Shown here: positions 283 through 21,035 of the stretch, in pieces
Layout of the letters: every line of letters begins with the position of its first letter
How positions within the stretch are numbered: the stretch's first letter is position 1
NCBI GenBank assembly: GCA_024278555.1
Contig: JAJRSX010000058.1
Location: forward strand, 1 to 23,080
Direction of reading: 5' to 3'
Source: a bacterium
Lineage (GTDB): Bacteria; CG2-30-53-67; CG2-30-70-394
Length of the DNA stretch: 23,080 bases
Program-made: the position numbers and the translations under genes
Notes under the pieces: model-generated
What the model saw: the letters and a program-made list of their open reading frames with translations, nothing else
Databases searched by the model: none
What the model was told of the DNA's origin: nothing

Positions 283-1198
283 GGGTCAGGTCTTGTCTTG
301 CCACATTTACCGGTTCACTACCCGGCTGATCGTCGTGTAGTGGAGGCCGAGGTGGTCGCCGATGGTTTTGAGGGTGTAGCCGTGGATGAGGTGGGCATCG
401 CGGATCCGTTGGTTGCGCTCCGCGCGACTCGCCGTCTCGATCCCGGTAAAGAGGTCGGCGGGCGTCGGCCGGTCGACACGACGCTGCTCCCGGGGAACCT
501 CTTGGAGATTGGCTCCACCCCGGAGGAGGGGGGATAGGCGTTCCAGAAAGGCTGCACCCCCCAGGACAATCTGGCCCCGCACGCTCGCCCACGGGCTCGC
601 CTTCCCCACCCCCTCACGCACGAACCGGCAGTACTGCGCCCGTGCCTCGGGACGCGACCGACCGAACTGGCCCAGCACCCAGTCCGTCTGCAACCACGGG
701 GGGCTCTTGCATCGACCGGCGGTGGCCCGATAGCTGCTCCAACGGTAGCGGTCCGCCGAGGCCACCATGGCGGCGCGCACCGGGTTGAGCACCACATAGC
801 GGCACACCTCCAGGAGGTAGGGCTGCTCCTCCACGAGGATCGACTTGTATCGACCCTGGAAGAGGTGCCCCACGTGGTCGTGTCGCCGGTTGAAGCGCTG
901 GGTATAGACGCCGTTGAGCTGGCGCATGCCCCGTGAGAGGTTGGCTTCCGGGGTCTCGATGAGCAGGTGGTAGTGGTTGTCCATCAAACAGTAGGCGTAG
1001 CACCGCCACCTAAACCGTTCGACGATGGACGCCAAGAGGTCGACGAAGCCCTGCCGGTCACCGTCGTCTGCGACAATCGCCATGCGGCCATTGCCGCGCG
1101 CGGTGACGTGGTAGACCGCCCCAGGAAACTCGATCCGCAAGGGTCGCGCCATGGCGCCAGTCTGCCGGCGGAAATGTGGCAAGGCAAGACCTGACCCC
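283..1198 (-). mobile_element. REP-type (Y1/HUH) transposase element with terminal inverted repeats
   Basis: The element is bounded by near-perfect 26-bp inverted ends: 283-308 (starting GGGTCAGGTCTTG) and 1172-1197 (ending CAAGACCTGACCC), with one mismatch. A single transposase gene on the minus strand fills the interior. A perfect 12-bp palindrome, GCGCCATGGCGC (1146-1157), covers the transposase start codon. Ends beginning GGTCAGGTCTTG are typical flanks of solitary IS200-like/RAYT transposases. No target-site duplication is visible, as expected for single-strand HUH transposition. A miniature relative lies at 2658-2788 in the same orientation. Confidence 0.75.
307..1152 (-). CDS. REP-associated tyrosine transposase (Y1_Tnp, IS200-like)
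   Basis: This 281-residue protein is a Y1-family HUH endonuclease. The N-terminus MARPLRIEFPGAVYHVTARG is the classic RAYT opening. The HUH motif is His60-Tyr-His62 in DNHYHLL, and the catalytic tyrosine is most likely Tyr119 in CRYVVLNPVRA. The C-terminal end (IRDAHLIHGYTLKTIGDHLGLHYTTISRVVNR region) is a helix-turn-helix of the kind often appended to long RAYT proteins. The frame is open upstream to 1359, but the ATG at 1152 is chosen because it starts exactly at the conserved family N-terminus. The gene lies wholly between the element's inverted ends and all catalytic residues are present, so the copy may be active. Such enzymes mobilise single-stranded DNA of short palindromic repeats. 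Confidence 0.9.
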   Translation of the reverse strand: MARPLRIEFPGAVYHVTARGNGRMAIVADDGDRQGFVDLLASIVERFRWRCYAYCLMDNHYHLLIETPEANLSRGMRQLNGVYTQRFNRRHDHVGHLFQGRYKSILVEEQPYLLEVCRYVVLNPVRAAMVASADRYRWSSYRATAGRCKSPPWLQTDWVLGQFGRSRPEARAQYCRFVREGVGKASPWASVRGQIVLGGAAFLERLSPLLRGGANLQEVPREQRRVDRPTPADLFTGIETASRAERNQRIRDAHLIHGYTLKTIGDHLGLHYTTISRVVNR

Positions 1199-1207
1199 GG
1201 AGGGTCT

Positions 1208-2536
1208 TCATCCTTCCTGGGCCGGTTCGGAGAGCAGCCACTCGTAGGCCGGCTGAACCTGCACGCCGGGGGGGGAGGCGGGAGCAACCTGATCATGGGT
1301 GAGCACCAGCAGCCGCCGGGTTGCCCGCGGGTAGTCGCCCGCGGCTTGGGTGAGAGCACGCAGCTCGCGCCTCCTGGTGTCGGCCCCCGAGGGTTCCGCG
1401 CATACCTGGATCAGCTCCTCGCCGCCGGCGAGGTGGTGGGCGTGGAAGTCCACCTCGAACCCCTCCCGGCTCTTCACATACCCCACCTCGGCCTTGCGTC
1501 GGGTCAGCTCGTTGAACACCACCGTCTCCAGGGCCTGGCCCAGGTTCCCCCGACCGCCGATGTCAAAGGCGCCGATGAGGCCCGGGTCCACGGGATAGAT
1601 CTTGCGTGGATTGGAGTTGCGGCGCCGTTCGGACTCGCTGGCCAGGGGCACGGTGGCGATCAGAAAGGCGTCCAGCAGGTGGCCGAGCAGCGCATGCACC
1701 GCATCCTTCGCCACCCCGTGGCCCTGGGCCTTCAGGTCCTGATAGAGGCGATGGACGCTGAAGGCGCCGGCCGGATTCCGCAGACACTGGCGCGTCAACC
1801 AGCGTAGGGCCGCCACCTGCGACACGGCGTAGCGCTCCACCACGTCGCGGAAGAGCACCGTGTCCACGTAGCCCTGGAGTAGCTCGACACGCAGAGGAGG
1901 CGCCAGCCCCTGGGCCTCGGGAAAGCCCCCCTCCACGAGGTATTCGCCGAACCGTCTCTCCACCAGGGAGCGTTCCGCGCGGGTCAGGTGGGCCACCGGC
2001 TTGTCCGGCTCCTCGCCGCGGTGGCGCAGAAACTCGCGGAAGCTGAAGGGGTGGATGACGGTCTCCATCCCACGACCGCGCAGGGCGGTGTGCACCTCGC
2101 GGGAGAGCATCCGCGCCGAGGAGCCGGAGACCACGATCTCGACCCGCTCGGAGTCCACCACCCGGCGCACGAACCGCTCCCAGCCGGCGACGAGCTGGAC
2201 CTCGTCCAGGAGCCAGAGGACCGTCTCGCGTCCTCGCAGCTCCGAGTAGCGGCGGTAGTACTCCTCGAGCAGCAGGTTGAGCTGTTCGACCTCCAGGTTG
2301 GCGAGGCGGTCGTCGTCGAAGCTCACGAAGAGGGCCCGCTCCGGCGCCACCGCCTGCCGCCGCTCTCGCTGCAACTGGCGGAGGAAGGTGGTCTTGCCCG
2401 CGCGGCGCATGCCGATAACCGCATGCACCTTGCCGGCTACCGCCGGCAGCCGTGCCTCCCGCCGGGTCAGGGGCGGAGGCAACGCAGGTGCCACCGCCGT
2501 GTTGAGTTTCTCCAGGAGCACCGGATGGAGGGTCAT
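1208..2536 (-). CDS. AAA+ ATPase with DUF4143 domain
   Basis: The protein has 442 residues. Its N-terminal AAA_14-type ATPase core has a Walker A GMRRAGKTT (residues 42-50), a Walker B LWLLDE (107-112) and a sensor-like IVVSGSSA (about 134-141). The second half (about 200-370) is DUF4143-like, with RDVVERYAV, an Asn-Pro-x-Lys-x-Tyr-x-x-Asp-like NPRKIYPVDPGL stretch, and a restriction-endonuclease-fold-like VKSREGFEVDFHAHH ending. This ATPase family is widespread, frequently mobile, often found near toxin-antitoxin and REP elements, and has no settled biochemical role. The gene ends 10 bases from the right end of the full REP-type element and its start lies 122 bases from the miniature copy, so it is bracketed by related repeats. 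ATG at 2536 is the first start of the conserved region. It appears intact. Confidence 0.85.
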   Translation of the reverse strand: MTLHPVLLEKLNTAVAPALPPPLTRREARLPAVAGKVHAVIGMRRAGKTTFLRQLQRERRQAVAPERALFVSFDDDRLANLEVEQLNLLLEEYYRRYSELRGRETVLWLLDEVQLVAGWERFVRRVVDSERVEIVVSGSSARMLSREVHTALRGRGMETVIHPFSFREFLRHRGEEPDKPVAHLTRAERSLVERRFGEYLVEGGFPEAQGLAPPLRVELLQGYVDTVLFRDVVERYAVSQVAALRWLTRQCLRNPAGAFSVHRLYQDLKAQGHGVAKDAVHALLGHLLDAFLIATVPLASESERRRNSNPRKIYPVDPGLIGAFDIGGRGNLGQALETVVFNELTRRKAEVGYVKSREGFEVDFHAHHLAGGEELIQVCAEPSGADTRRRELRALTQAAGDYPRATRRLLVLTHDQVAPASPPGVQVQPAYEWLLSEPAQEG

Positions 2537-3038: not shown

Positions 3039-3055
3039 TTGGCACGCCAGTTGCT
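3039..3055 (+). promoter_or_regulatory. Sigma-54 (RpoN) promoter of the tetraheme cytochrome
   Basis: The sequence TTGGCACGCCAGTTGCT fits the -24/-12 consensus YTGGCACGNNNNTTGCW at every defined position, with correct GG-to-GC spacing. Transcription should start near 3065, giving an 87-nt leader before the ATG at 3153. A sigma-54 promoter implies tight control by an ATP-dependent activator. Confidence 0.88.
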
Positions 3056-3079
3056 ATAGCCCAGTCACTAACGCGAATC

Positions 3080-3127
3080 GCACCTCCCAAACGGGGAGTT
3101 GCATCTCAACCCACAGGCCCTCGGGCC
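3080..3127 (+). promoter_or_regulatory. 5' leader stem-loops of the tetraheme cytochrome mRNA
   Basis: Two hairpins lie between the sigma-54 start region and the ribosome site. The first is 3080-3102: GCA-c-CTCCC, loop AAACG, GGGAG-t-TGC. The second is 3116-3127: GGCC, loop CTCG, GGCC. They leave the strong AGGAGG ribosome-binding site (3139-3144, 8 bases before the ATG) free. Stable leader hairpins followed by a strong Shine-Dalgarno fit a long-lived, heavily translated mRNA. That role is inferred. Confidence 0.4.
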
Positions 3128-3152
3128 ACAACCTCATTAGGAGGAAGTACCG

Positions 3153-3893
3153 ATGAAAGCTCTCCTCTCCCTCACCGCCGGCGTGGCCATGGCCGCCATG
3201 CTCGCCCCCACCACCGCCTCCGCCCTGATCGACAACACCGCGCATGACTTCTCGAACGCTGCGTGGAACTTCGGCTCCGGCGAGATCTGCCGTGTCTGCC
3301 ACATCCCGCATGACACCGAGAATCCCAACCTGGTGGACGGCGCCGGCAACCCGATCGAGCTGCTGTGGAACCGCGCCCTCGACACCACCACCACCTTCCA
3401 GCCGTACGCGATCTTCTCCACCGCCTCGGCCGGCACCATGCCGACGGTGGGCCAGCCTGACGGCATCTCCAAGCTCTGCCTCGGCTGCCACGACGGTGCC
3501 GTCGCCCTCGACGAGTTCGACGCCCAGTCCGACGGCTCCCGCCGGACGACCTGGTCCGGGACCGACACCTACGTGGGTGACGTGAACCCCGAGGCCCTGA
3601 TCCCGGCGATGGGCGTTGGCGACCTGCGCCGGACCCATCCGATCTCCGTGACCTACCCGTCCGGCCTCTTCGTCCACAACAGCAGCTCCTTCTCGCCCAC
3701 CAGCCGTCCCCTCGGCATGTCCGGGACCATCGGCGACGTCCTCGACAACGGCAAGGTGCAGTGCTCCACCTGCCACGACGTCCACGCCGAGGAGGCGATC
3801 GCGGGTACGCACCTTCTCCGCCAGGCGGTGAAGCAGTCCCTCGCCACCGACGGCCGGGCCTCCTCCCTCTGCCGGACCTGCCACCTGAAGTAA
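3153..3893 (+). CDS. Secreted tetraheme c-type cytochrome, OmcE-like (candidate nanowire subunit)
   Basis: The protein has 246 residues with a Sec signal peptide (MKALLSLTAGVAMAAMLAPTT region, cleavage near ASA at 22-24). Four CXXCH heme sites lie at residues 46-50, 109-113, 204-208 and 240-244, the last only two residues from the C-terminus. Landmarks are CHIPH, LLWNRA, VGQPDGISKLCLGCHDGAVAL, a HPISVTYP block with candidate distal His, KVQCSTCHDVH and SLCRTCHLK. This order and spacing match, from memory, the OmcE filament cytochromes of Geobacter. Polymerisation is inferred, not shown. The start has AGGAGG at 8 bases. Codon use is strongly C-ending, consistent with high expression. It has its own sigma-54 promoter and terminator. 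The next operon encodes likely partners, including a larger cytochrome whose N-terminus is paralogous. Confidence 0.85.
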   Translation: MKALLSLTAGVAMAAMLAPTTASALIDNTAHDFSNAAWNFGSGEICRVCHIPHDTENPNLVDGAGNPIELLWNRALDTTTTFQPYAIFSTASAGTMPTVGQPDGISKLCLGCHDGAVALDEFDAQSDGSRRTTWSGTDTYVGDVNPEALIPAMGVGDLRRTHPISVTYPSGLFVHNSSSFSPTSRPLGMSGTIGDVLDNGKVQCSTCHDVHAEEAIAGTHLLRQAVKQSLATDGRASSLCRTCHLK

Positions 3894-3915
3894 GGATGGC
3901 TTGATCATCAGGATC

Positions 3916-3950
3916 AAGGCCCCTGTACCCTCGGGTACAGGGGCCTTTTT
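3916..3950 (+). terminator. Strong intrinsic terminator after the tetraheme cytochrome
   Basis: A perfect 14-bp stem (3916-3929 with 3934-3947), a CTCG loop and a run of five T (3946-3950) form a textbook Rho-independent terminator. A smaller stem (TTGATC-N5-GATCAA, 3901-3917) precedes it. The terminator separates the cytochrome from the NHL operon; limited readthrough would give a high subunit-to-machinery ratio. Confidence 0.93.
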
Positions 3951-4099
3951 CGTGCGCCGCCTTGACCCCAATGAGGGCAGCGTGATATCTCAGCGCGCTC
4001 GCCCGCGGCCCAAGAATGGTCGTGGGGCCTCGCGATCGGCGCTCCATTGAAGCCACAATCGCGCTCTCTCGTCTCTCCTAAAGGTTTGAGGAGCAATCG

Positions 4100-5323
4100 A
4101 TGTCCTTCGTTTATAGGTGGTCTCTGCGGCGTGGCGGTTGGCGCCGTCTCTTCCTGCTGGCGGCGGCGGTGGGTTTGGCTGGGTGCGGCACGGTCTCCCA
4201 CGAGCTCCCCACCCGCTTCTTTCCGGAACCGCCGACGCCGCCACGGATTCAGTTCCTGCAGGCGATCCGTACCTCCAACGACATCGAGCCGCACACGAAG
4301 ATGGAGGGCTTTCTCTTCGGCAACATCGAGGTGCGTACCTTCGCCAAGGTCTACAGCGTGGCGGTCCACGACGGGGTGATCTATGCCGCCGACACCCAGC
4401 TCGGCTCCCTGGTGATCGTCGACCCGATCCACCAGAAGTTCCAGGCCATCGACGACCGGGGCGAGGGGGACATGCACCGGCCGGTCTACGTCGCCATCGA
4501 CGACGAGGGGACCAAGTACATCTCCGACTATGACCGGCAGCAGGTCCTGGTCTATGACAAGCGCGACCGATTTGTCCGTGCCTTCGGCTCGAAGGAGGAG
4601 TTCAGGCCCATTGGCGTGGCGGTCTACGATGAGAAGCTGTACGTCACCGATACCAAGGATCAAGAGGTCGAGGTGCTGGACAAACGCACCGGCGAGAAGC
4701 TCGCCACCATCGGCCACCCGGGCACCGCCCCCGGGGAGTTCTACAACCCGTTGGGCTGCACGGTGGACCGGGAGGGTAATCTCTACGTCACCGATATGTT
4801 CAATGCCCGGGTGGAGAAGTTCGACTCCGATGGGAAGTTTCTCTTTACCTTCGGTCGGCGTGGCGATCGCCCCGGTGATTTCGCCCGCCCGAAGGGGATC
4901 GCGGTGGACGACGACGGCTTCATCTACGTGGTCGACTCCGCCTTCGAAAACGTCCAGATCTTCACTCCGGACGGTAAACCGGCCCTCTTCTTCGGCGGCT
5001 TCGGTGGTCCCGAGGTCCCGGGTGCCATGTGGTTGCCATCGGGGATCGTCCTTACCCAGGACGCGAAGCTGATGGAGTACTACCGGCCGCGCTTCGACCC
5101 GGACTTCGAGGTCAAGTACTTGATCCTCGTCTCCAACCAGTTCGGTCCGTCCTACATCAACGTCTACGCCCTGGGGGAGGCGCGGCCGGGGACGCCTCTG
5201 GCGGAGGGCAAGGTGCGCCAGCGGTTCAAGGAGTCGAAGGCGAAGGAGGACCTGAAGCCGTCGAGCTTCACGACGCGGCCGCAGGGGCAGGGCGCGGAGG
5301 GGGAGGCGGCGCCGGGGAAGTGA
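4100..5323 (+). CDS. NHL-repeat beta-propeller lipoprotein
   Basis: The protein has 407 residues. Its N-terminus has basic residues, a hydrophobic stretch and a lipobox LAGC with the lipidated Cys at residue 29, so it is membrane-anchored. After a proline-rich motif (FPEPPTPPRIQFLQAI) come repeated NHL/6-bladed propeller units, e.g. GVAVYDEKLYVTDTKDQEVEVLD, GCTVDREGNLYVTDMFNARVEKFD and GIAVDDDGFIYVVDSAFENVQIF. The C-terminal tail is charged (KVRQRFKESKAKEDLKP). TGAGGAG lies 6 bases before the ATG. It is the first gene of the conduit/assembly operon; the next gene starts one base after its stop. Propellers of this kind accompany Geobacter cytochrome clusters (OscD-like in the omcS-companion set), where a role in filament maintenance was reported. 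That correspondence is inference. No obvious promoter stands out between 3951 and 4099; TTGACC at 3962 is only a weak -35 candidate. Confidence 0.88.
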   Translation: MSFVYRWSLRRGGWRRLFLLAAAVGLAGCGTVSHELPTRFFPEPPTPPRIQFLQAIRTSNDIEPHTKMEGFLFGNIEVRTFAKVYSVAVHDGVIYAADTQLGSLVIVDPIHQKFQAIDDRGEGDMHRPVYVAIDDEGTKYISDYDRQQVLVYDKRDRFVRAFGSKEEFRPIGVAVYDEKLYVTDTKDQEVEVLDKRTGEKLATIGHPGTAPGEFYNPLGCTVDREGNLYVTDMFNARVEKFDSDGKFLFTFGRRGDRPGDFARPKGIAVDDDGFIYVVDSAFENVQIFTPDGKPALFFGGFGGPEVPGAMWLPSGIVLTQDAKLMEYYRPRFDPDFEVKYLILVSNQFGPSYINVYALGEARPGTPLAEGKVRQRFKESKAKEDLKPSSFTTRPQGQGAEGEAAPGK

Positions 5324-5324
5324 G

Positions 5325-5996
5325 ATGAGCCGACCTCTTGGCGCCTGGTCCTGGGTGGCTCTCCTACTCCTCGCCCTGGCGGGGTGTAGCGCGGTGGAGC
5401 GCCACCGGGCCCTCTCCCTGGTCTTCGACGGGGTGCCGCCTTTGGGTGGGGTGCAACCGCAGGAGAACAAACCGCTCCGCAACGCCCCGCGGGAGGATAC
5501 GGTCGCCTCCCTCGCCAAGGAGATGGGGGTGGAGGCCGACTTCGTCGGCCCGGTGCAATCGAAGTTCCACCGTCAGGTGGTCTACAAGCACCCCCCCTTC
5601 GCGGAGAAGCGGTGTGGTGGCTGCCACCTCCTGGCCAAGGGGAGCAGTGCCATGCCCACCGGGGTGGCCTTCGTCCTCCCGAAGCAACAGCTGTGCGGTA
5701 AGTGCCACAAGGATAAGCGGCAGGAGGCGCTCGCCTCGGCCAACCAGTGGCTCCACGCCCCGGCCCAGTACGGCGCCTGCCTCAAGTGCCACAACCCCCA
5801 CGAGAGCCCGAACCCGTACATGGCCCAGAAGGGACCGGTGCAGGCGCTCTGCTACCAGTGCCACGACCAGGCGCGCCTCACCGCCACGGAGGCCCACGCC
5901 GCCATCGGCGAGCGTGACTGCACCGACTGCCACGACCCCCATGGCAGCCAGCGGCAGTACATGCTGCTGCCGGAGGTGGAGGGGGGCACCGGTTAG
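5325..5996 (+). CDS. Pentaheme c-type cytochrome lipoprotein
   Basis: The protein has 223 residues. Lipobox LAGC puts the acylated Cys at residue 21, and five CXXCH sites lie at 97-101, 124-128, 152-156, 176-180 and 199-203. The mature N-terminus carries the motif RHRALSLVFDGVPPL, which I recognise from lipoprotein cytochromes coupled to outer-membrane porins. The second half has CHNPH and CHDPHGS patterns of NrfB/doubled-CXXCH type. The ATG lies one base after the preceding stop, so translation is coupled. With the beta-barrel gene 63 bases downstream, the most likely job is the periplasm-facing heme module that feeds electrons into or through the outer-membrane barrel. Partner identity is inferred from the operon. 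TAG is the natural stop. Confidence 0.88.
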   Translation: MSRPLGAWSWVALLLLALAGCSAVERHRALSLVFDGVPPLGGVQPQENKPLRNAPREDTVASLAKEMGVEADFVGPVQSKFHRQVVYKHPPFAEKRCGGCHLLAKGSSAMPTGVAFVLPKQQLCGKCHKDKRQEALASANQWLHAPAQYGACLKCHNPHESPNPYMAQKGPVQALCYQCHDQARLTATEAHAAIGERDCTDCHDPHGSQRQYMLLPEVEGGTG

Positions 5997-6059
5997 CCAT
6001 TCGGGGTTCTACGGATCGTCGTCTCCTTGCCGATGAGCCTTGTGGCCACCTTCCTATCC

Positions 6060-7766
6060 ATGTCTCTGCACACCTCCCCCCCCCCCACCGTGTCTTTTCC
6101 CGGAAAGGCGCGCCACAGCCGTCTGTGGCTCGTGTCGCTTGTGGGGGCGCTCCTCCTCCTCACCGTGGTGCCGGTGCGGGCATCGCGCCTCGACTACCTG
6201 CGGGTCCAGCCTATTACCCCCTTTCATGTCATGACCCACGGTGCGCGTTTCGATCTCGGTTTCGAGTGGGAGGACGACTTCCGTGACAGTGGTGGCGGGG
6301 GGGGCGCCGGGGACCAGAACTGGGCCCTCCTGGAGACCCTGGTGGTGGGGATGGACAGCTACTTCTTTCACCCCCTCCTTGTGGAGATGGTGGGCGATGT
6401 CGGGTTTGATCTGCGCCAGGAGTGGTTTGAGCCGGACGGATCGGCCAGCGGCACGATTCGCAATAACTCGGTCCTCTACGACCTCGACCTTTACTTCCTG
6501 CAGCAGAAGCCCGTCCACGGCTCGGTGTCGGTGGGGAGCAACGTCGTCCAGACGAACGCGAGCTTTTTTCGCAGCCAGCGGTATCAGAACGATTACCAGC
6601 GGGCCGCCCTGAACTACTGGAACCGCCTCTTCCCCCTCGACCTCACCTACTCGCGGATCCAGAGCCGGAGTGAGGGGACGGCGAGCCTTGACAGCGACGA
6701 GGATATTCTCGCCCTTGAGGTGCGCAACGAGACGAAGCACGCGGCGAGCCAACTCCACGTCCAACGGGAGACGCGCAGCCAGCCGGAGGGGGGGCTCGAC
6801 GCGACCACCAACACGGCGAACTTCTCCAACATTTTGCGTGCTGGGGGCTCCCGCTACTTCCTCCTCACCCAGGCGAACTGGAGCGAGCAGCAGGGGAGCC
6901 AGTCGATCCGTATGAGCCGCCTCGGCGAGGATCTCACCCTCCACCACACCACGAGTCTGGAGACGAACTACAGCTACCTTTTCGACAAGATCAACCGTGG
7001 AAGCTTCACGCGCGCGAACGCCACGTCACCCACGATTGCTCAGGCCCAGCAGAGCGGCCTCGACGAGCACGTCACCTACAAGGCACGTCTCACCCACCGC
7101 CTCTACGCCAGCGTCGCCACCAACCTCTTCGTGGAGAAGAACAAGGAGCGCCTCGACGCCGGCTTTCAGGACGTTACCTCGGGTGGCTTCAACATCAGCT
7201 ACCGTAAGCGGATTGGGGTAGGGACCATCGCCATCGGCTACGGCATGAGCAAGTTGCGTAACACCCAGGACCTCTCGGGGACCACCATCGCGATCCAGGG
7301 CGAGCGCCACACCTTCGGCGAATCACCGGAGGGGGGACGGGTGGTCACCCTCGGACACGATCTGATCGACGCCGCCACCATCACGATTGCCGACGCCGAC
7401 GGCTTTCCCATCCTCGATCCCCTTACCGGGGCGGAGATCAGCGAGGGGCTGCACTATCAGATCGAGCAGGTAGGGTCGGTAACCCGTATCCGCCTCCTGG
7501 CCCCCGACGGTCTCTTTCTCCTCGGCCGGGAGGTCTTTGTAAGCTACACCTTCCAGCCCCTGCCACCGGTGAAAATCGACACCCTGGCACGGAGCTATAA
7601 CCTCGGTTGGGAGGTGGGCAATATTTGGCGCATGTACTACGAGGCGATGCGCTCCGATCAGAGGTTGCGTGAGGGAGAGGCCCTGGGGCGCCTGGACAAT
7701 ATCAAGGACCGTCGCTATGGCGCCGACCTCCACTGGGGCGTCTCCACCACCCGTGTTGAGCGCTAG
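6060..7766 (+). CDS. Outer-membrane beta-barrel (porin-cytochrome conduit type), N-terminal part ending at an in-frame TAG
   Basis: The product has 568 residues with a signal peptide (RLWLVSLVGALLLLTVV, cleavage near VRA-S). It continues with alternating polar/aromatic strands typical of a large barrel: LDLYFLQQKP, YWNRLFPLDLTYSRIQ, TSLETNYSYLFDKIN, FNISYRKRIGVGTIAIGYG. An inserted soluble-looking domain (VVTLGHDLIDAATITIADADG to LLGREVFVSYTF) is shared by several Desulfuromonadales barrels. Translation stops at TAG 7764-7766, but the same frame stays open and barrel-like to 8168, so this is probably a truncated version of a ~704-residue protein. The start is uncertain: ATG 6060 is preferred for signal-peptide geometry, with ATG 6033 and TTG 6027 also in frame and no clear Shine-Dalgarno for any. 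A run of 11 C (6076-6086) lies just after the start. Confidence 0.78.
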   Translation: MSLHTSPPPTVSFPGKARHSRLWLVSLVGALLLLTVVPVRASRLDYLRVQPITPFHVMTHGARFDLGFEWEDDFRDSGGGGGAGDQNWALLETLVVGMDSYFFHPLLVEMVGDVGFDLRQEWFEPDGSASGTIRNNSVLYDLDLYFLQQKPVHGSVSVGSNVVQTNASFFRSQRYQNDYQRAALNYWNRLFPLDLTYSRIQSRSEGTASLDSDEDILALEVRNETKHAASQLHVQRETRSQPEGGLDATTNTANFSNILRAGGSRYFLLTQANWSEQQGSQSIRMSRLGEDLTLHHTTSLETNYSYLFDKINRGSFTRANATSPTIAQAQQSGLDEHVTYKARLTHRLYASVATNLFVEKNKERLDAGFQDVTSGGFNISYRKRIGVGTIAIGYGMSKLRNTQDLSGTTIAIQGERHTFGESPEGGRVVTLGHDLIDAATITIADADGFPILDPLTGAEISEGLHYQIEQVGSVTRIRLLAPDGLFLLGREVFVSYTFQPLPPVKIDTLARSYNLGWEVGNIWRMYYEAMRSDQRLREGEALGRLDNIKDRRYGADLHWGVSTTRVER

Positions 7767-8168
7767 AACCATCGGTCGCTTCGCACCCCCTTCGACACGA
7801 CGCGTTTGAGCGAGACCCTCACCTTCCCGATCGGTCTGGACACCCACGTCAACGTGGTGGGGAGCTACGAGAAGCGCCATTCCGCCGGGGTGGCGGAGAC
7901 CACCGCCGGTGCCCTGACCGGCCGCCTCACCTGGCGTCCCTCCAACAATCTCCTGTGGAACGGCGATGCCACCTACCGCAACAGCTCGGTGGTGGGCAAC
8001 TCGGAGCGCGAGTACGAGTTCAACACCGACCTCACCTGGAGCTTCCGCCACGCCGAACTGCGCCTCTACTATCGAGCCCTTCAGGGTTGGCACGAGATCA
8101 CCGGTAAGGAGAGGCGCCAGTACTTCTTCCTCCAGATCCGCCGGTACTTCGGACAGCGAAAGGTGTGA
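7767..8168 (+). pseudogene. C-terminal part of the outer-membrane beta-barrel, separated by the TAG codon
   Basis: Reading on in the same frame after TAG gives 133 further residues (NHRSLRTPFDTTRLSETLTF to FLQIRRYFGQRKV). These contain four to six amphipathic strands and an aromatic-rich final strand of the kind the BAM complex recognises. There is no frameshift between the two parts. The only in-frame start soon after the stop is a TTG at 7806 with no ribosome site, so independent translation is unlikely. Its TGA (8166-8168) lies one base before the next gene's ATG, which looks like translational coupling. The options are a nonsense mutation, a base-call error or stop readthrough. Confidence 0.75.
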
Positions 8169-8169
8169 T

Positions 8170-9273
8170 ATGGCGACCATGTGGAGACACCGGAGGCGCT
8201 CCCTTGGGCTGGCCGTCTGCCTGGCGATGGCGATGGCGTGCGTCCACGCTGCGCGGGTCGTGCCGCCGCCGCCTCCTAACCCCGCGGCCGGCCACCTGGT
8301 GTGGCCGCCGGCGCCGGCGCGGCCGCGGATCACCTACCTGCGCGATGTCATCCTGTCGCGTGACCGGCGACCGCCGCGCGGCTTCTGGCACCGGCTTGGC
8401 CGCCTCTTCGGCAAGGCGGCGCGGCCGCGGATCATCCGGCCCTACGGGGTGGCGGTGGGCGACGAGGGGGCGCTCTACATCGCTGATCCGGGAGCGTTCC
8501 GCGTCCACATCCTCGATCTCAGCGACGGGAGCTACCGTTTTCTCCCGGACCGCCGCGACCATCTCGCCCTCCTCTCGCCGGTGGGGGTGGTGGCGGACGG
8601 CGCCGGGGGGTGCTTCGTGAGCGATTCCGCCGCCGCCAAGGTTTACCGTTTCGACGCGGGCGGCCGTCTGCAGGCGACGATCGAGCGGTTTCACCGCCCC
8701 ACCGGCGTTGCCTTCAACCAACACCTCGGCCGTCTCTACGTAGTGGATACGGGAGACCACCGGGTACGGGTCTTCACCGCGACTGGGGACCACCTCTTCG
8801 ACTTCGGCTTCCGGGGCGACCAGGCAGGCGCCTTTAACTACCCCACCAATATCTCCGTCACCACCGCGGGCACCATCTACGTGGTGGACTCGATGAACTT
8901 CCGGGTCCAGCGCTTTGACCCCGATGGGAACCCCCTGGGGAGCTTTGGGGCCGCGGGAGACGGTCCGGGCACCTTCTCCAAGCCGCGCGGCGTGGCGCTA
9001 GACAGCGATGGCCACATCTACGTGGCCGACGCCACCTTCGACAACGTCCAGATCTTCGACGGCGAGGGGCGGGTCCTCCTCTACTTCGGCTCCACCGGGA
9101 CCGGTCCGGGCCACTTCTACCTCCCCGCCGGGGTGGCGATCGATGACAGGGACCGGATCTACGTGGCCGATTCGTACAATCGGCGAGTCGAGGTCTTCCA
9201 GTACCTGCGTGACCCGCTTGCGGCGCCCATGGGAGCCGGGGCGACGCTTCCCCCGAAGGAGGTGGAACGATGA
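8170..9273 (+). CDS. Second NHL-repeat beta-propeller protein, exported
   Basis: The protein has 367 residues. A basic N-terminus (MWRHRRRSLGLAVCLAMAMAC) leads to either a weak lipobox (Cys24) or a signal peptidase I site (VHA-A). Next is a proline-rich segment, WPPAPARPRITYLRDV, like the WPPPP-x-PRI-x-YL signature of the first NHL protein, then NHL blades such as GVAFNQHLGRLYVVDTGDHRVRVF, NISVTTAGTIYVVDSMNFRVQRFD, GVALDSDGHIYVADATFDNVQIF and GVAIDDRDRIYVADSYNRRVEVF. It is a paralog of the 4100-5323 product. The start is one base after the barrel's distal stop, and the stop overlaps the next ATG (ATGA). It is probably periplasmic or membrane-attached and acts with the adjacent 12-heme cytochrome; the exact role is unknown. 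Confidence 0.88.
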   Translation: MATMWRHRRRSLGLAVCLAMAMACVHAARVVPPPPPNPAAGHLVWPPAPARPRITYLRDVILSRDRRPPRGFWHRLGRLFGKAARPRIIRPYGVAVGDEGALYIADPGAFRVHILDLSDGSYRFLPDRRDHLALLSPVGVVADGAGGCFVSDSAAAKVYRFDAGGRLQATIERFHRPTGVAFNQHLGRLYVVDTGDHRVRVFTATGDHLFDFGFRGDQAGAFNYPTNISVTTAGTIYVVDSMNFRVQRFDPDGNPLGSFGAAGDGPGTFSKPRGVALDSDGHIYVADATFDNVQIFDGEGRVLLYFGSTGTGPGHFYLPAGVAIDDRDRIYVADSYNRRVEVFQYLRDPLAAPMGAGATLPPKEVER

Positions 9274-10979
9274 CCAGACATCAATCTCTGTGGCGTGCCG
9301 GCCTGGCGGCGGCTCTCCTCCTCCACGCCGCCTCGGCGGCGGCGGTAATGGACATCGAGCTTACCAAGCACAATCTGTCGCTCACCGGTCCGGGCCAGAT
9401 CCGCGCCGTCTCCATGGACCGCATCTGCGTCTTCTGCCACACCCCGCACAATGCCGCTTCCAACACCCTCCTGTGGAACCGGGCCGACACCACCACCACC
9501 TACATCCCCTACAGCTCCTCCACCGCGCCGCAGGTGGTCGGCCAGCCCACGGGGAGCTCGCGTCTCTGCCTGTCGTGCCACGACGGCACCATCGCCCTCG
9601 GGGCGCTCAACTCGCTCCCCACCGAGGTGGCCATGACCCAGCGCTTCCTCGGCATCGGCGCTGGAGCGATCGGCGCCGACCTCTCCGACGACCACCCAGT
9701 CTCCTTTCTTTACGATGTGGCCCTGTCGAATGCCAACCCCGAGTACAAGGACCCGTCACTCCTCCTGGAGCCGATCACCCTCGACAGCAACGGCGAGCTC
9801 CAGTGCTCGACCTGTCACGATGCTCACGACAATACCTACGGCAAGTTCCTCTACATGGACAACACCGCCTCGGCCCTCTGCCTCCAGTGCCACCAGCCCA
9901 CAGGTTGGCCGCTGTCGCCCCACAATCTGGCCTCCAACACCTGGAACCACGTCCTCCCGGACCCGTGGCCCCACACCACCTGGTCCACGGTGCACGACAA
10001 CGGGTGTGAGAGCTGCCACCGGCCCCACAGCGCCGGTGGCCATGCCCGCCTCATGAACACCTTCACCGAGGAGGACAACTGCCTCCCATGCCACAACGGC
10101 AACGTGGCGCCGCAGAACATCGCGGCCCAGTTCCAGAAGCCCTCGTCCCACCCGGTCGCCGCCACCGCCGGGGTCCACGACCCCACCGAGCAGGCGGCGA
10201 CCATGGGGCGCCACGTGGAGTGTGCCGACTGTCACGACGCCCACCAGGCGCAGCCGGGGAGCGGCACCCCGCCAGCGGTGAGCCCCCCCATCGCCGGGGT
10301 CTCCGGGGTCGACAGCGCCGGCATCGAGGTCTCCGTCGCCACCAACCAGTACGAAATCTGCTTCAAGTGTCACGCGGATACCGCCCAGGGGCTCACTCCG
10401 GTACCGCGCCAGGTCGTAACCCTTAACAAGCGGCTCCAGTTCGACATCACCAACCCCTCCTTCCACCCGGTGGAGGGGCCGGGGGTGAATCCCAACGTCC
10501 CGAGCCTCATCCTCCCCATGACCAGCGCCTCGGTGATCTACTGCACCGACTGCCACAGCAACGACGCCGGTCCTGGAGCCGGTGGCACCGGCCCGGCCGG
10601 CCCCCACGGGTCGAACTACCCATATCTGCTTGAGCGCCAGTACGTGATGACCGACAACACGGCGGAGGCACCCACGGTCTATGCCCTCTGTTACAAGTGT
10701 CACGATCGCAACAACATCCTCGCCGACCAGTCCTTCTCCAAGCACAGTCTCCACCTCGGCCCCCTGGTGAACGCCACCTGCGCCGCCTGCCACGATCCCC
10801 ACGGGATCAGCGGCGCTCAGGGCAACGCCACCAACAATGCCCACCTGATCAACTTCGACACCTCGGTGGTCTCGCCCAACTCCGCCGGGCTCCTCAAGTA
10901 CGAGTCCCTGGGTACCTTCACCGGCCGCTGCTTCCTCTCCTGCCACGGCCGCGACCACAACCCATCGGTCTACCCGTGA
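9270..10979 (+). CDS. Large multiheme cytochrome (11 CXXCH plus one CX3CH) with OmcE-like N-terminal domain
   Basis: The protein has 569 residues with a Sec signal (GLAAALLLHAASAAA, cleavage near residue 25). CXXCH sites start at residues 53, 100, 179, 204, 246, 271, 318, 364, 425, 474 and 504; a final CFLSCH at 554-559 has one extra residue and may bind a twelfth heme. Residues about 50-210 reproduce the tetraheme cytochrome at 3153: CVFCHTPH, TLLWNRADTTTTYIPYS, VGQPTGSSRLCLSCHDGTIAL, DHPVSFLYD, LQCSTCHDAH and ALCLQCH. The rest has CHDAH/CHDPHG-type sites. AAGGAGG (9256-9262) precedes the ATG, which overlaps the upstream stop. It is probably exposed on or outside the outer membrane as the terminal conduit cytochrome. 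The shared N-terminal domain suggests it could dock to or seed the filament. That is inference. Confidence 0.88.
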   Translation: MTRHQSLWRAGLAAALLLHAASAAAVMDIELTKHNLSLTGPGQIRAVSMDRICVFCHTPHNAASNTLLWNRADTTTTYIPYSSSTAPQVVGQPTGSSRLCLSCHDGTIALGALNSLPTEVAMTQRFLGIGAGAIGADLSDDHPVSFLYDVALSNANPEYKDPSLLLEPITLDSNGELQCSTCHDAHDNTYGKFLYMDNTASALCLQCHQPTGWPLSPHNLASNTWNHVLPDPWPHTTWSTVHDNGCESCHRPHSAGGHARLMNTFTEEDNCLPCHNGNVAPQNIAAQFQKPSSHPVAATAGVHDPTEQAATMGRHVECADCHDAHQAQPGSGTPPAVSPPIAGVSGVDSAGIEVSVATNQYEICFKCHADTAQGLTPVPRQVVTLNKRLQFDITNPSFHPVEGPGVNPNVPSLILPMTSASVIYCTDCHSNDAGPGAGGTGPAGPHGSNYPYLLERQYVMTDNTAEAPTVYALCYKCHDRNNILADQSFSKHSLHLGPLVNATCAACHDPHGISGAQGNATNNAHLINFDTSVVSPNSAGLLKYESLGTFTGRCFLSCHGRDHNPSVYP

Positions 10980-11005
10980 GCCACACTTTCTTTCCTGGAG
11001 CCCCC

Positions 11006-12022
11006 ATGGCCCGTTGCCTTGCAATTCTTCCCCTCCTTGCCCTCTTTCTGTTGCCCCTCCCGGCGGCGGCGGAGGGGGCGCCGGGAGGGGTGACCGATAC
11101 CGACGTGGTGGTGCGGGTGAACGGCACCGACATCACCGTCGGTGAGGTGGCGGCAGAGGTTCAGCACCTCCTGCCCGCGACCTTCTTTCACAACCGCGTC
11201 GACCCGGACAAGGTAAAGCAGCTTCAGGGTCAGGCGGTGGAATCGTTGATTGCCAAGGAGCTGAAGCTCCAGGAGGCAAAGCGGCTTGGGATCACCGTGC
11301 CGGAGGCGGAGATCGAGGCGCGGCTCGACGAGGCGATCGCCAAGTTTCCGAGCCGCGAGGCCTTTGACGAACGGTTGAAGAAGGGGGGCATCACCCGCGA
11401 CAGCGTGAAGGCGGAGATCCGCCGGCGAAAGCTCATCGCGCGGGTCGAGGCGCAGGCGGTGGCGGGGATCGAGGTGGGCGAGAAGGAGGCGCGCGCCTTC
11501 TACGACGCCAACCCAGCGCGCTTCGTGGAGCCGGAGCAGCTCCACCTCAAGGAGATCCTCTTGAAGGTCGCCCCTCTGGCGACCCAGGAGGACGCCAAGG
11601 TGGTCAAGGCGAAGGGGGATTGGCTGGTGAAGCAGCTTCGTACCGGCGCCATGACCTTTGATGACGCCGTCGCCCAGCATTCGGAGGAGAATAAAGAGAA
11701 TGGTGGTGATCTCGGATGGCTCCACAAGGGTCAGCTCAGTGAGGAGATCGAGGCGGAGGTAGTCAAGCTCAAGCTGGGAGAGGTGGCCGGCCCCTTCAAG
11801 GTCTTCAAGGGGTACTACATTCTCCAGCTCATCGATCGGAAGCCGCCGCGCACCGCCCCCTTTGAGGAGGTGCGGGACAAGCTGATCCGGCAGCTGCAGG
11901 AGAGGCGCGAAGAGGCGCAGCGCAAGGCGTGGCTCGACGGCCTACGCGAGAAGGCGAAGGTCGAGATCCTCATGCCGGAGGCCCTGGCCACGACGGAGAC
12001 GGGGGCGGCGAAGGGAGAGTAG
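11006..12022 (+). CDS. Periplasmic peptidyl-prolyl isomerase/chaperone, SurA-PpiC (parvulin) type
   Basis: The protein has 338 residues with signal peptide MARCLAILPLLALFLLPLPAAA. A SurA-N-like helical chaperone region follows (about 30-165: VVVRVNGTDITVGEVAAEVQ, ESLIAKELKLQEAKRLGI), then one parvulin domain (about 175-285) with LHLKEILLKV, MTFDDAVAQHSEENKENGGDLGWLHKGQL and GEVAGPFKVFKGYYILQLIDR. The C-terminal helix is charged. GGAG lies 5 bases before the ATG at 11006; the frame is open further upstream but only inside the cytochrome gene. It is the last gene of the operon. In the Geobacter osc cluster a prolyl-isomerase chaperone (OscH) folds the filament cytochrome; I propose the same role for proline-rich heme proteins here. 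Confidence 0.9.
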   Translation: MARCLAILPLLALFLLPLPAAAEGAPGGVTDTDVVVRVNGTDITVGEVAAEVQHLLPATFFHNRVDPDKVKQLQGQAVESLIAKELKLQEAKRLGITVPEAEIEARLDEAIAKFPSREAFDERLKKGGITRDSVKAEIRRRKLIARVEAQAVAGIEVGEKEARAFYDANPARFVEPEQLHLKEILLKVAPLATQEDAKVVKAKGDWLVKQLRTGAMTFDDAVAQHSEENKENGGDLGWLHKGQLSEEIEAEVVKLKLGEVAGPFKVFKGYYILQLIDRKPPRTAPFEEVRDKLIRQLQERREEAQRKAWLDGLREKAKVEILMPEALATTETGAAKGE

Positions 12023-12061: not shown

Positions 12062-13882
12062 CTACGGGGTGCCGCCCAGGGGGCGGGCCATCCGTGATAC
12101 CGCCGCCGCCCCGGCCGTGTCGCCGGTGAGCATCAGGGCGCGGGTGAGGTTGCGGTAGGCGGTCGCGGAGGTGGGGTCGTGGGTGATCGCAGCCCGTAAC
12201 TCGGAGATCGCCCGGACGGGGTCGCCCGCCATCAGGTAGGCGGCGCCGAGTAGCGAGTGGGCGCGGGCGTACGTGGGGGTGAGGCGTGTCGCCTCCTGCA
12301 GCCCCGCGATCGCTTCGGCCAAGCGTCCCTCCTTCAGGTCGAGGCGGGCGAGGTTGGTACGCGCCACCGCGTAGCCCGGGGAGAGGCGGATTGCCTCGGT
12401 AAAGGCCGCCCGCGCCGTCGCCAGGTTGCCGCTCCGAGCGTAGGCGGTGCCCAGGCGGCTGATCGCCTCCGCCGAGGTCGGACGGATGGTTACCGCCTTT
12501 CGGTAGCAGCGCACCGCCTCCTCCAGGCGACCGGCGTCATCGTAGACCACTCCGAGGTTGGTCCACGCCTGGGGTGCAGCGTCGCCGCCGCAGGTGATGG
12601 CGTGGCGCCAGAGGGACTCGCCGTCGTGCCAGATGTGGATCTGGGCCCGGGTGATGGGGACCAAGGCGCCGGTAAGGAGGAGGCAGAGGAGCCCGCCGCC
12701 GGCCGCGGCCGCGGACAGGCCCCCACGCCGACGCGCCACTCCGGTGAGCCACCCCACTCCCAGGCCGATGGCTAGCTCGGGGGCGAGGAGAGGCAGGTAG
12801 GTGTACCGGTCAGCCGCCGCCTGTAGTCCCACCTGGACGATCCCCACCACCGGCAGGAGGGTGGAGACGTAATACCCCCACACAGTGAGGGTTAGGCGGT
12901 GGCCGCGGCGCCACGCCACCGCTGCCGCCACGGTGAGGGCGATCGCCGCGGTCAGGTAGATTGTCTCGCCGCCCGGGTGGAAGTCGGGGGGGAGCTCGTA
13001 GAGGGGCGAGAGGCAGGCGGGCCAGAGGAGCTTGCCGAGATACAAGCAGAGGGCGTGGCCGGCGTGGAGGAGCCGGTCGGCGATGGGTAGGCGGGCCACC
13101 GGGACCACCGCGTGCATCTGCGCCTGAGCGATCACGGTCACCCCCGCCGAGCCCCCGGCGAGGAGGGCGAAGGGGACCTTCTCGAGGAGGAGGCGCCGCC
13201 ACCCGAGCCGCCTTGCTCTCTCCAGCGGGTAGAGGTCGAGGAGGAGGAGGACCACCGGCAGGCTTACCGCCATCGGCTTGGCAAGTAGCGCCAGGGCGGT
13301 GGTCGCCACCGCTACCGTGTAGGCGGTCCGCCCCCCGCGGGTGGTATAGCGGAGATAGGCGAGGAGGGTGAGGAGAAAGAAGAGGCCGCAGAGGACATCC
13401 TTGCGCTCGGCGACCCACGCCACCGACTCCACGTGTATCGGGTGGAGGCCAAAGAGCAGCGCTGTGGCAGTGGCCGCGGCGAGGCGCGCCGCCGGCTCGC
13501 GCAGCAGAGCATCGGGGGGAGCGCGGCGCCGACCGATTCCAATGAGCTGCCAGGTGAAGGCGAAGCAAAGCAGGGTGTCGGCGGCGTGGAGGAGGAGGTT
13601 GGTGCGGTGGTGGAGGCGTGGGTCACGGCCGAAGAGGGTGATGTCGACGGCGTGGGAGAGCCAGGTGAGGGGGTGGTAGTTGCCGGTGTGGAAGGTGGTG
13701 GCCATCCACCTCAGGGAGGCGGCGTCGAGGTGGTCGATGTGATGGTTGTCGGTGATGTAATCCGGGTCGTCCCAGGGGACAAAGCCGTTGTCCAGGGCCG
13801 GGAGGTAGGCGAGGTAGGTGAAGGCGGCGGTCACCACCGCCACGAGGGTGGCGACGGGGCGGAGGACGGCGGTGTGGCTCAT
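12062..13882 (-). CDS. TMTC-like GT-C membrane glycosyltransferase with C-terminal TPR repeats (second of tandem pair)
   Basis: The protein has 606 residues. The first ~420 are polytopic membrane sequence of GT-C type. After the first helix comes the FVPWDDPDYITDN loop (Asp38/Asp39 are candidate catalytic acidic residues), then NYHPLTWLSHAVD, and the family signature HPIHVESVAWVAERKDVLCGLF (about 147-168), also seen in eukaryotic TMTC O-mannosyltransferases. From about 430 to 600 there are four to five TPR units (e.g. AEAISRLGTAYARSGNLATARAAFTEAIRLSP). In TMTCs the membrane part transfers mannose from a polyprenyl carrier to Ser/Thr and the TPRs select protein targets; bacterial substrates are mostly unknown. 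Its ATG overlaps the stop of the upstream paralog by 4 bases. Confidence 0.8.
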   Translation of the reverse strand: MSHTAVLRPVATLVAVVTAAFTYLAYLPALDNGFVPWDDPDYITDNHHIDHLDAASLRWMATTFHTGNYHPLTWLSHAVDITLFGRDPRLHHRTNLLLHAADTLLCFAFTWQLIGIGRRRAPPDALLREPAARLAAATATALLFGLHPIHVESVAWVAERKDVLCGLFFLLTLLAYLRYTTRGGRTAYTVAVATTALALLAKPMAVSLPVVLLLLDLYPLERARRLGWRRLLLEKVPFALLAGGSAGVTVIAQAQMHAVVPVARLPIADRLLHAGHALCLYLGKLLWPACLSPLYELPPDFHPGGETIYLTAAIALTVAAAVAWRRGHRLTLTVWGYYVSTLLPVVGIVQVGLQAAADRYTYLPLLAPELAIGLGVGWLTGVARRRGGLSAAAAGGGLLCLLLTGALVPITRAQIHIWHDGESLWRHAITCGGDAAPQAWTNLGVVYDDAGRLEEAVRCYRKAVTIRPTSAEAISRLGTAYARSGNLATARAAFTEAIRLSPGYAVARTNLARLDLKEGRLAEAIAGLQEATRLTPTYARAHSLLGAAYLMAGDPVRAISELRAAITHDPTSATAYRNLTRALMLTGDTAGAAAVSRMARPLGGTP

Positions 13883-15835: not shown

Positions 15836-16780
15836 ATGTACCGAGAGACCCACATCCACGTGGTCATCCCCGCCTACAACGTGGCCCCCCACATTGAGGG
15901 GGTTCTGCGTACCCTCCCCGACTTCGTCGATGCGGTCACCGTGGTGGACGATGCGAGCGTCGATGCCACCGCCGGGGAGGTGGAGCGGGTGGCGGACCCT
16001 CGGGTGGTCCTCCTCCGCCACGCGGAGAACCAGGGGGTGGGGGGGGCGATGGCCACCGGCCTGGCCGACGCCCTCGCGCGCACCGAGGGGATCGTGGTGA
16101 AGATGGACGGCGACGGTCAGATGGACCCGGCGGAGCTGCCGGCGCTGCTCGATCCGATCGTCGACGGGGAGGCGGACTACACCAAGGGCAATCGCTTCCT
16201 GCGCAGCCGCGAGCTCGCCGCCATGCCGAAGGTGAGGCTGTTCGGCAACTTCGTCCTCACTTTTCTGACCAAACTAGCCTCGGGCTACTGGAACGTCTTC
16301 GATCCGCAAAATGGGTACCTCGCGATGCGCTCGGAGGTGGCGGCGCTGCTCGACCTCGAGCAGATCTCGCGCCGCTACTTTTTCGAGAACGACATGCTGG
16401 TGAACCTCAATATCTTCGACGTACCGGTCCTCGATGTGGCGATGGCGGCGCGCTACGGCGACGAAGCATCCTCCATGAACCTGTGGCAGGTGGTGGTCAC
16501 CTTCCCGTGTCACCTCTTCCGCCGGTACTGGTACCGCTTTTATCAGAAGCATGTCCTTCGCGATTTTTCCCCCATCGCCCTCTTCATGCTCCTCGGCCTG
16601 CCCATGCTCCTTTGGGGGATTCTCTTTGGCGGCTATACCTGGCTCCACTCCATCGTCCACCACGCCTTTGCCTCCACCGGCACGGTGATGCTCTCAGTCC
16701 TCCCCTTCCTGGTGGGCTTCGAGCTGGTCCTTCAGGCGATCGTCCTGGAGATCCACGCCACGCCGCGGAGCCGCCGGTGA
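15836..16780 (+). CDS. GT2 glycosyltransferase, dolichol/polyprenyl-phosphate sugar synthase-like
   Basis: The protein has 314 residues. The GT-A fold signature is clear: VVIPAYN (9-15), VVDDASVDAT (36-45), NQGVGGAMATGL (65-76), and the metal-binding MDGDGQMDP (90-98). C-terminal to the catalytic domain are two membrane helices (SPIALFMLLGLPMLLWGILFGGY and TVMLSVLPFLVGFELVLQAIVLEI), as in polyprenyl-phosphate mannose/glucose synthases of the GtrB/DPMS type. It would charge undecaprenyl phosphate with a hexose on the cytoplasmic face. It diverges from the two TMTC-like genes and overlaps the following methyltransferase (GTGA), with a GtrA-type protein next. This is the set expected for donor synthesis, flipping and transfer. 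The sugar cannot be told from sequence. Confidence 0.87.
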   Translation: MYRETHIHVVIPAYNVAPHIEGVLRTLPDFVDAVTVVDDASVDATAGEVERVADPRVVLLRHAENQGVGGAMATGLADALARTEGIVVKMDGDGQMDPAELPALLDPIVDGEADYTKGNRFLRSRELAAMPKVRLFGNFVLTFLTKLASGYWNVFDPQNGYLAMRSEVAALLDLEQISRRYFFENDMLVNLNIFDVPVLDVAMAARYGDEASSMNLWQVVVTFPCHLFRRYWYRFYQKHVLRDFSPIALFMLLGLPMLLWGILFGGYTWLHSIVHHAFASTGTVMLSVLPFLVGFELVLQAIVLEIHATPRSRR

Positions 16781-17472: not shown

Positions 17473-17893
17473 CGGCACGGCACCGCAGCGAGAGATCAGG
17501 GGCGGTACGGGGGTCATACGTCTCCTCCGCTTTCTTCTTTCCGGGGCGGCGGCGGCGGCGATCCAGGCCGGCCTCCTCTACCTCCTCACCGACCGTGGGG
17601 GGGTGTGGTACCTCTGGTCCTCCACCATCGCCTTTCTCGCTGGAACCGCGGTGAGCTTCTCCCTCCAGAGGGGGTGGACCTTTGGTGATCGAACCAGCCA
17701 CCGCCTCGGCCGCCAGGCGGTGAGCTATCTGGCCCTCGCCCTTGTCAATCTCGCCGTCAACGGCGGCCTCATGTACCTCGCCGTGGAGCTGCTTCGTCTC
17801 CACTACGTGGTCGCCCAGCTTGCCGTGGCGGCGCTGATCGCCGGTGAGACCTTCCTCCTCTACCGCATCTGGATCTTCCGCCCCGCTTCCTGA
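17459..17893 (+). CDS. GtrA-family small membrane protein (polyprenyl-linked sugar flippase candidate)
   Basis: The protein has 144 residues with four membrane helices: LRFLLSGAAAAAIQAGLLYLLT, WSSTIAFLAGTAVSFSLQR, AVSYLALALVNLAVNGGLMYLAV and VVAQLAVAALIAGETFLLYR. The spacing, the FSLQRGWTFG segment and the closing FLLYRIWIFR are typical of GtrA. GtrA proteins are proposed to flip undecaprenyl-phosphate-glucose and also occur in arabinan and teichoic-acid pathways. Its start overlaps the methyltransferase end by 14 bases, completing a three-gene operon. It is convergent with the next gene, with 7 bases between stops. Confidence 0.88.
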   Translation: MSAGSGTAPQREIRGGTGVIRLLRFLLSGAAAAAIQAGLLYLLTDRGGVWYLWSSTIAFLAGTAVSFSLQRGWTFGDRTSHRLGRQAVSYLALALVNLAVNGGLMYLAVELLRLHYVVAQLAVAALIAGETFLLYRIWIFRPAS

Positions 17894-20534: not shown

Positions 20535-21035
20535 CTACAGCAGGTGGCAGGTGCGGCACAGGTTGTCGTGCCTCGAGTCCACCGTAAGGTCGCCGGTGGT
20601 GAGGCAGCCGCTGGGCCGGGACACCGCCTCGCCGCTACGATTCTCCTCTACCAGGTGGCACGAGGGGCAGCTCACCCGCCCCTCCGGGAGCGCCATACGG
20701 GGCGGAAGGGTGGCGCGGCTGCGGAAGTGGCGCGGGTCGGTGAGGGCGAAGCGGTCGTAGCGCATCCCCACCGGGTGGTTGCGGGTCTGGAAGGCGGCGG
20801 TGTCGAGGTGGGTTCCGGCTCGCCGGAGGGTGATTCGGTGTGACCGGCTGCCGTCGTGGCAGCTCATGCAGCGCCTGCCGAGGGGGTCGAGGTCGTCCAC
20901 CCCACCGCCCTCTGCCGCGGCCGCCGTCTCACCGAGGAGAAAGGTGCGCAGCACGGTCGACCAGTGGGCCGCGGAGGCGGTGGGGGCGATGGCGAGGATC
21001 AAGAGGGTGGCGAGAAGGGTCGTGCGGTGGTGCAT
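20535..21035 (-). CDS. Secreted triheme c-type cytochrome related to the OmcE-like cytochrome
   Basis: The protein has 166 residues with signal peptide MHHRTTLLATLLILAIAPTASA. Three CXXCH sites lie at 56-60, 123-127 and 160-164. The arrangement CMSCHDG, then NHPVGMRYD, GRVSCPSCHLVE, LTTGDL, and DNLCRTCHLL at the very C-terminus follows hemes 2 to 4 of the tetraheme cytochrome at 3153 (CLGCHDG, HPISVTY, KVQCSTCH, SLCRTCHLK). The first heme domain (CxxCHxPH, LLWNR) is missing. AAGGGGA precedes the ATG. A GEMM-class riboswitch lies in the leader. It could be a periplasmic electron carrier or a filament-associated subunit; the sequence does not decide. Confidence 0.87.
   Translation of the reverse strand: MHHRTTLLATLLILAIAPTASAAHWSTVLRTFLLGETAAAAEGGGVDDLDPLGRRCMSCHDGSRSHRITLRRAGTHLDTAAFQTRNHPVGMRYDRFALTDPRHFRSRATLPPRMALPEGRVSCPSCHLVEENRSGEAVSRPSGCLTTGDLTVDSRHDNLCRTCHLL

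Follow-up and report, generated by a model that had tools for sequence, protein, structure and literature searches.

A recurrent Uet-type gene cassette with an OmcE-family tetraheme cytochrome and a candidate outer-membrane conduit

Introduction

Even in Geobacter, the way in which cytochrome filaments connect to the cell is still an open question (PMC10553843). The closest described gene set is the undecaheme electron transfer (Uet) pathway, which PMC10734462, citing Eddie et al. 2022, places in Ca. Tenderia electrophaga and the Tenderiales and also in Gallionella. Its parts are given there as the tetraheme cytochrome UetA, the prolyl isomerase UetB, the porin UetC, the triheme proteins UetDEG, the NHL proteins UetHI and the undecaheme cytochrome UetJ, and the pathway is read as a porin-multiheme complex whose tetraheme cytochrome is extracellular. 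A second relevant system is the omcS-companion (osc) cluster, which a preliminary description of the present locus had named and which is described in PMC13194489 and PMC12977616; the former proposes OscE, OscF and OscG for secretion of OmcS and OscH for its folding. The OmcE filament has an inter-subunit heme ligand (PMC9473688), and a Geoalkalibacter locus encodes an OmcE homologue together with two NHL genes (PMC12016550). Here we describe a locus in a window of 23,080 bases that is one entire contig of a 3.06-Mb metagenome-assembled genome (MAG) from an uncultured Nitrospirae-type bacterium.

Results

Gene content of the locus

All seven genes named in the preliminary description were recovered at the same positions from open reading frames, heme motifs and Pfam matches (Table 1). 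Its count of twelve hemes for the 12-heme cytochrome is right provided that a single CX3CH motif (CFLSCH at 554) is counted with the 11 CXXCH motifs.

Table 1. Features of the window, with the evidence for each.
Feature	Position	Strand	Evidence
OmcE-family tetraheme cytochrome, candidate filament subunit, UetA-like	3153..3893	+	4 CXXCH, sequence and fold matches to OmcE
Intrinsic-terminator-like hairpin 3' of the tetraheme gene	3916..3950	+	14-bp stem, -32.6 kcal/mol, z -6.9
NHL1, 6-bladed-type beta-propeller lipoprotein	4100..5323	+	Pfam NHL; lipidation Cys in 69/70 homologues
Pentaheme lipoprotein, MtrA-like, candidate trans-membrane wire	5325..5996	+	MtrA profile match; Cys21 invariant (n=26)
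Large outer-membrane beta-barrel, UetC/MtrB-like, broken by TAG 7764-7766	6060..8168	+	AlphaFold2, Foldseek
NHL2, second beta-propeller, probable lipoprotein	8170..9273	+	Pfam NHL; Cys in 72/83 homologues
12-heme cytochrome, UetJ-like: OmcE-like N-domain and 8-heme part	9270..10979	+	7tfs match, heme motifs
SurA/PpiC peptidyl-prolyl isomerase, UetB-like	11006..12022	+	Pfam Rotamase and SurA_N
Triheme OmcE-related protein, associated with the cassette	20535..21035	-	Aligns to OmcE profile positions 83-212
DxDxDG-repeat protein truncated at contig end	21636..23080	+	Translation; relatives L014, L015, L017

The tetraheme protein and its transcription

The tetraheme protein carries a signal peptide and CXXCH motifs at residues 46, 109, 204 and 240. 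Just two relatives of known structure came up in a single-sequence search, namely 9yuq (2.4e-9) and 7tfs, the OmcE nanowire (9.6e-9), and a profile built from 67 homologues matched 7tfs at 1e-51 over positions 8-214 and 9yuq at 1.9e-44, followed by OmcS at 4.8e-8. The AlphaFold2 model (pLDDT 74, pTM 0.71) had a sole significant Foldseek match among 350,542 PDB chains, which was OmcE (E 2.3e-6), and VIA aligned 175 residues of the two at 3.5 A with a Z of 11.7. Cytochromes other than OmcE were absent among the Foldseek and VIA matches of this model, an absence that we did not use as proof.

Eight His residues are near-universal in 89 aligned proteins: the four of the CXXCH motifs and four others (H31, H53, H162 and H211 in the numbering of the window protein), all of which OmcE and 9yuq possess. 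The inter-subunit ligand of OmcE is most likely among these four distal His, and the window protein therefore probably has such a ligand too, as judged from the alignment; polymerisation does not follow from this. In a tree, the cassette tetrahemes enclose OmcE with its orthologues as well as 9yuq, and the N-terminal domains of 12-heme cytochromes fall on the opposite side. The only other OmcE-type genes in the genome are that N-terminal domain and the triheme relative. Sequence, predicted fold, axial His and place in the tree all assign the tetraheme protein to the OmcE family. The OmcE-like heme spacing noted at the outset thus turned out to be homology, seen in the single-sequence, profile and fold matches alike, and the suspected kinship with OmcE was borne out, with OmcE and 9yuq as the best matches and the distal His conserved.

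Direct folding revealed a perfect hairpin with a T-run between the tetraheme gene and the operon downstream, which a simple terminator scan had not flagged. Across loci the gap between the tetraheme and NHL1 genes has a median of 115 nt, versus 0 between the remaining cassette genes. Judged by these features, the tetraheme gene looks like a transcription unit of its own.

One alternative reading of these data is a Uet-type porin-cytochrome conduit that works without a filament, the tetraheme and 12-heme proteins being discrete surface or secreted electron carriers. It agrees with the published reading of Uet (PMC10734462), and a single tetraheme gene per locus would suffice for a carrier. We nevertheless find this doubtful, since the nearest solved relative by both sequence and fold is a polymer, OmcE nests among the cassette tetrahemes and the subunit gene is followed by its own terminator. 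We lean towards OmcE-type polymerisation of the tetraheme protein.

Conserved linkage across phyla

In six relatives from the same small clade, the order of the cassette is kept as far as the contigs extend. Scanning with an alignment of the 12-heme cytochrome found at least 80 relatives with 42-58% identity over nearly the full length, from at least 13 named groups (the names are submitters' titles, and the records are mostly MAGs). At least about a dozen phyla share a gene order in which the tetraheme is followed by NHL, small cytochrome, barrel, NHL and 12-heme. Among the matches listed, 51 loci had at least 7 kb of flanking sequence on each side; the tetraheme gene was present in 48 of these, NHL1 in 46, the barrel in 47 and NHL2 in 48, and all four core partners were present together in 42. 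The pentaheme gene was found in 29 of the same 51 listed loci and PpiC in 8. Chance assembly of the neighbours is ruled out because the gene order recurs in many genomes and across many phyla. Linkage of these neighbours elsewhere, which the preliminary description had set as a test, is thus strongly conserved. Its view of the make-up as unusual fell, since this is a recurrent cassette whose components match those published for Uet. The isomerase is an optional member, missing from most of the listed loci.

The distance matrices of the five core families correlate (0.36-0.69, with 0/500 permutations as high), to which shared species history contributes. The cassette also varies in form. Bacteroidota and Calditrichota carry it in two separate blocks. 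Gammaproteobacteria lack the pentaheme gene, and some of their loci have triheme genes 5' of the barrel; more generally, triheme or 8-heme genes are often near where the pentaheme gene is absent. In genome G366, a tetraheme protein 50% identical to OmcE lies inside the same cassette, and the cassette is present in other genomes as well (L112, L117), one cultured carrier being Desulforhopalus sp. IMCC35007 (L040). The idea that Geobacter omcE itself sits within a full cassette proved untrue of the Geobacterales OmcE loci examined.

The 12-heme cytochrome

Residues 9-209 of the 12-heme protein match OmcE (7tfs) with an E value of 1.3e-29, and the remaining part carries eight more hemes. Close relatives retain all 12 heme motifs, and across about 95 such proteins conservation extends to 28 His. 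The N-terminal domains form a single clade (90/91, support 0.93), and the fusion of the OmcE-like and 8-heme parts therefore looks single and ancient from these sequences. In Geobacterales, the two halves are encoded by two adjoining genes 3' of an NHL gene.

At five Geobacterales loci (L114, L115, L116, L118 and L119), a 4-heme OmcE-like gene and an 8-heme gene stand for the two parts of the 12-heme protein. The split genes adjoin NHL, PpiC and type II secretion-like genes, the last identified by eye without the use of a profile.

Such a modular history points to a protein with an OmcE-type end and a docking part, and we tentatively propose that the 12-heme cytochrome could act as an adaptor between filament and conduit.

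The pentaheme lipoprotein and the barrel

In 26 relatives of the pentaheme lipoprotein, the lipidation residue Cys21 and the five CXXCH motifs are invariant. Its profile matches MtrA, which is 6r2q_A in the Mtr structure, with an E value of 3e-27, the runner-up being at 1.4e-9. The molecule name given in the structure file is evidently wrong. MtrA is thus the nearest solved relative. The sequence of the barrel has no detectable similarity to solved barrels. Its AlphaFold2 model (71 homologues, TAG read as Gln) has a pLDDT of 91.8, about 28 long strands and a beta domain inserted at residues 392-480. Foldseek ranked MtrB (6r2q_B) first at 1.8e-9, with TonB receptors barely behind at 3.4e-9, and VIA gave a Z of 15.5 for Fiu and MtrB alike, with 451 residues aligned to MtrB. 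A barrel common to other Geobacter conduits was also considered, and the genomes searched held no further match.

With an MtrA-like cytochrome encoded beside a wide predicted barrel of about 28 strands, the porin-cytochrome conduit suspected among the neighbours stands as credible, and we consider an MtrA/MtrB-like outer-membrane conduit likely. The barrel, propellers and isomerase could instead be an osc-like machine for secretion and assembly of the filament, without a role in electron conduction. Such functions have been proposed for OscE, OscF, OscG and OscH (PMC13194489), and Gammaproteobacteria retain the barrel and propellers without the pentaheme gene. We regard this alternative as unlikely, since an MtrA-like lipoprotein adjoins a barrel that is wide, like MtrB, and the triheme or 8-heme genes described above are often close by where the pentaheme is absent.

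An in-frame TAG in the barrel gene

The barrel gene of this MAG is interrupted by an in-frame TAG, beyond which the same frame is open to its natural end and still aligns to relatives; in six relatives, the barrel is a single uninterrupted ORF. Several other genes of the window end in TAG, so the codon is a stop here, and its use as a sense codon in the ordinary code is ruled out. By the barrel model, the stop would cut off the last seven strands. The interruption may be a strain variant, decay or an assembly error. That the cassette is decaying in this organism, with a broken barrel and a non-functional conduit, is improbable: the sole barrel copy does have a TAG of the kind that closes other genes here, and by the model it loses seven strands, yet all other cassette genes are intact with every heme motif present, and the open, alignable frame past the stop points to a change that is recent, strain-level or an assembly error.

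Propellers, isomerase and nearby genes

Given the lipidation Cys in most homologues (Table 1), the NHL1 and NHL2 families appear to be mostly lipoproteins. In one Nitrospirota branch, the PpiC gene lies not at the end of the cassette but between the barrel and NHL2 (L061 6499-8800, with two PpiC; L056 7888; L073 8090; L088 7834; L094 5629). The isomerase may accordingly have been recruited into the cassette more than once.

The triheme protein is kin to hemes 2-4 of OmcE and is without heme 1 and the N-terminal His. Relatives adjoin the cassette in three other loci (L012 8136-8735, L014 13966-14613, L015 14670-15323), and one guess is that it is a filament-capping subunit. The DxDxDG-repeat protein is secreted and MopE/EF-hand-like; in relatives, a protein encoded close to the cassette joins repeats of this kind to a 10-heme part (L014 15048-17183, L015 15759-17906, L017 1043-4534).

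Downstream of the isomerase, the window encodes two TPR-tailed multi-membrane proteins of the TMTC glycosyltransferase type, a GT2 and a GtrA/DPMS-type protein (12062-15792 (-), 15836-16780, 17459-17893 (+)). OmcE is glycosylated, and two Geobacterales loci have weakly similar TPR proteins 3' of OmcE. A dedicated glycosylation module formed by the TPR membrane proteins and GT2 (12-17 kb) was rejected, these genes being unlinked in other cassette loci, and we therefore claim no general link to glycosylation.

At 289-1204 lies a REP-associated tyrosine transposase element (307-1359, minus strand). At 2673-2794, 1.5 kb away, a copy of about 120 bp lacks the inside of the element and joins its two ends, one of 51 nt at 92% and the other of 72 nt at 96%. 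This copy is a non-autonomous derivative and sits just upstream of the tetraheme gene.

Discussion

The reading that we prefer, with a probability of roughly 60%, is that the locus is a cassette of the Uet type for extracellular electron transfer, built with an OmcE-family subunit, in which filament, connector and conduit are arranged as follows. Periplasmic electrons would enter the MtrA-like pentaheme lipoprotein inside the sheath of the wide outer-membrane barrel. The 12-heme cytochrome would receive them next, docked to the conduit by its 8-heme part and running on into the filament through its OmcE-like N-terminal domain. The tetraheme subunit, transcribed separately, would polymerise head to tail, so that a heme in one subunit is completed by a His from the adjoining one, and electrons would travel along the filament outwards or towards the cell. 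Assembly may be scaffolded or guided by the two NHL propeller lipoproteins, and the prolyl isomerase may aid folding. We infer polymerisation, docking, the propeller and isomerase roles and the direction of electron flow from the homology, the conservation of hemes and His, the predicted folds and the gene linkage observed above.

Several observations count against parts of this proposal. Conservation of the axial His would also fit a soluble bis-His cytochrome. Some Geobacterales have OmcE and lack this barrel, which is therefore not a requirement for OmcE. The likeness of the barrel to MtrB is barely above that to TonB receptors, and gammaproteobacterial cassettes do without the pentaheme. 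The interruption of the barrel in this MAG also weighs against the preferred explanation.

More speculatively, OmcE could be a stray member of a nanowire cassette that is ancient, spans many phyla and normally comes with its own MtrAB-like conduit, with the 12-heme cytochrome and its OmcE-type N-terminal domain as a dedicated connector between filament and conduit in one continuous heme chain. If so, one operon-sized unit would name conduit, connector and filament subunit alike in at least about a dozen phyla and would provide a short list of proteins for joint expression and structure solution. OmcE-type nanowires would extend well past Desulfobacterota, and Uet, hitherto read as a porin conduit, would be recast as a possible filament system. 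As far as we have checked, the link to OmcE, the spread of the cassette and the adaptor hypothesis are new here; a link between UetA and OmcE may already be in print.

Comparison with known systems

By its component list, on which the match rests, the locus resembles Uet in its tetraheme cytochrome, prolyl isomerase, barrel, two NHL proteins and 11/12-heme cytochrome. It differs in having the MtrA-like pentaheme lipoprotein where Uet has the triheme proteins UetDEG; the triheme protein of the window is OmcE-related and encoded far from the cassette, so the cluster has no UetDEG-type triheme. Because the pentaheme replaces these trihemes, we regard the locus as a variant of Uet and not as a plain member. 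Loci L140 and L141 represent the triheme version of Uet with the same core. With the OmcE nanowire of Geobacter sulfurreducens (7tfs) and with 9yuq, the tetraheme protein shares the family, four hemes, four distal His and the predicted fold; the OmcE polymer was solved, whereas the window protein is known from its sequence and a monomer model. Geobacterales omcE loci have NHL genes, but the pentaheme, barrel and 12-heme genes are not beside OmcE. With MtrAB (6r2q), the locus shares an MtrA-related cytochrome and a barrel of comparable size, although MtrA has ten hemes and the window pentaheme has five and is lipidated. Finally, like osc and OetABI (PMC13194489, PMC12977616 and PMC10553843), it places a filament cytochrome, here a candidate one, in the company of genes for a prolyl isomerase, for secretion or a conduit and for large cytochromes. 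Those clusters are built around the hexaheme OmcS and the window cassette around a tetraheme OmcE-family candidate, and by analogy the osc cluster and this cassette may be equivalent.
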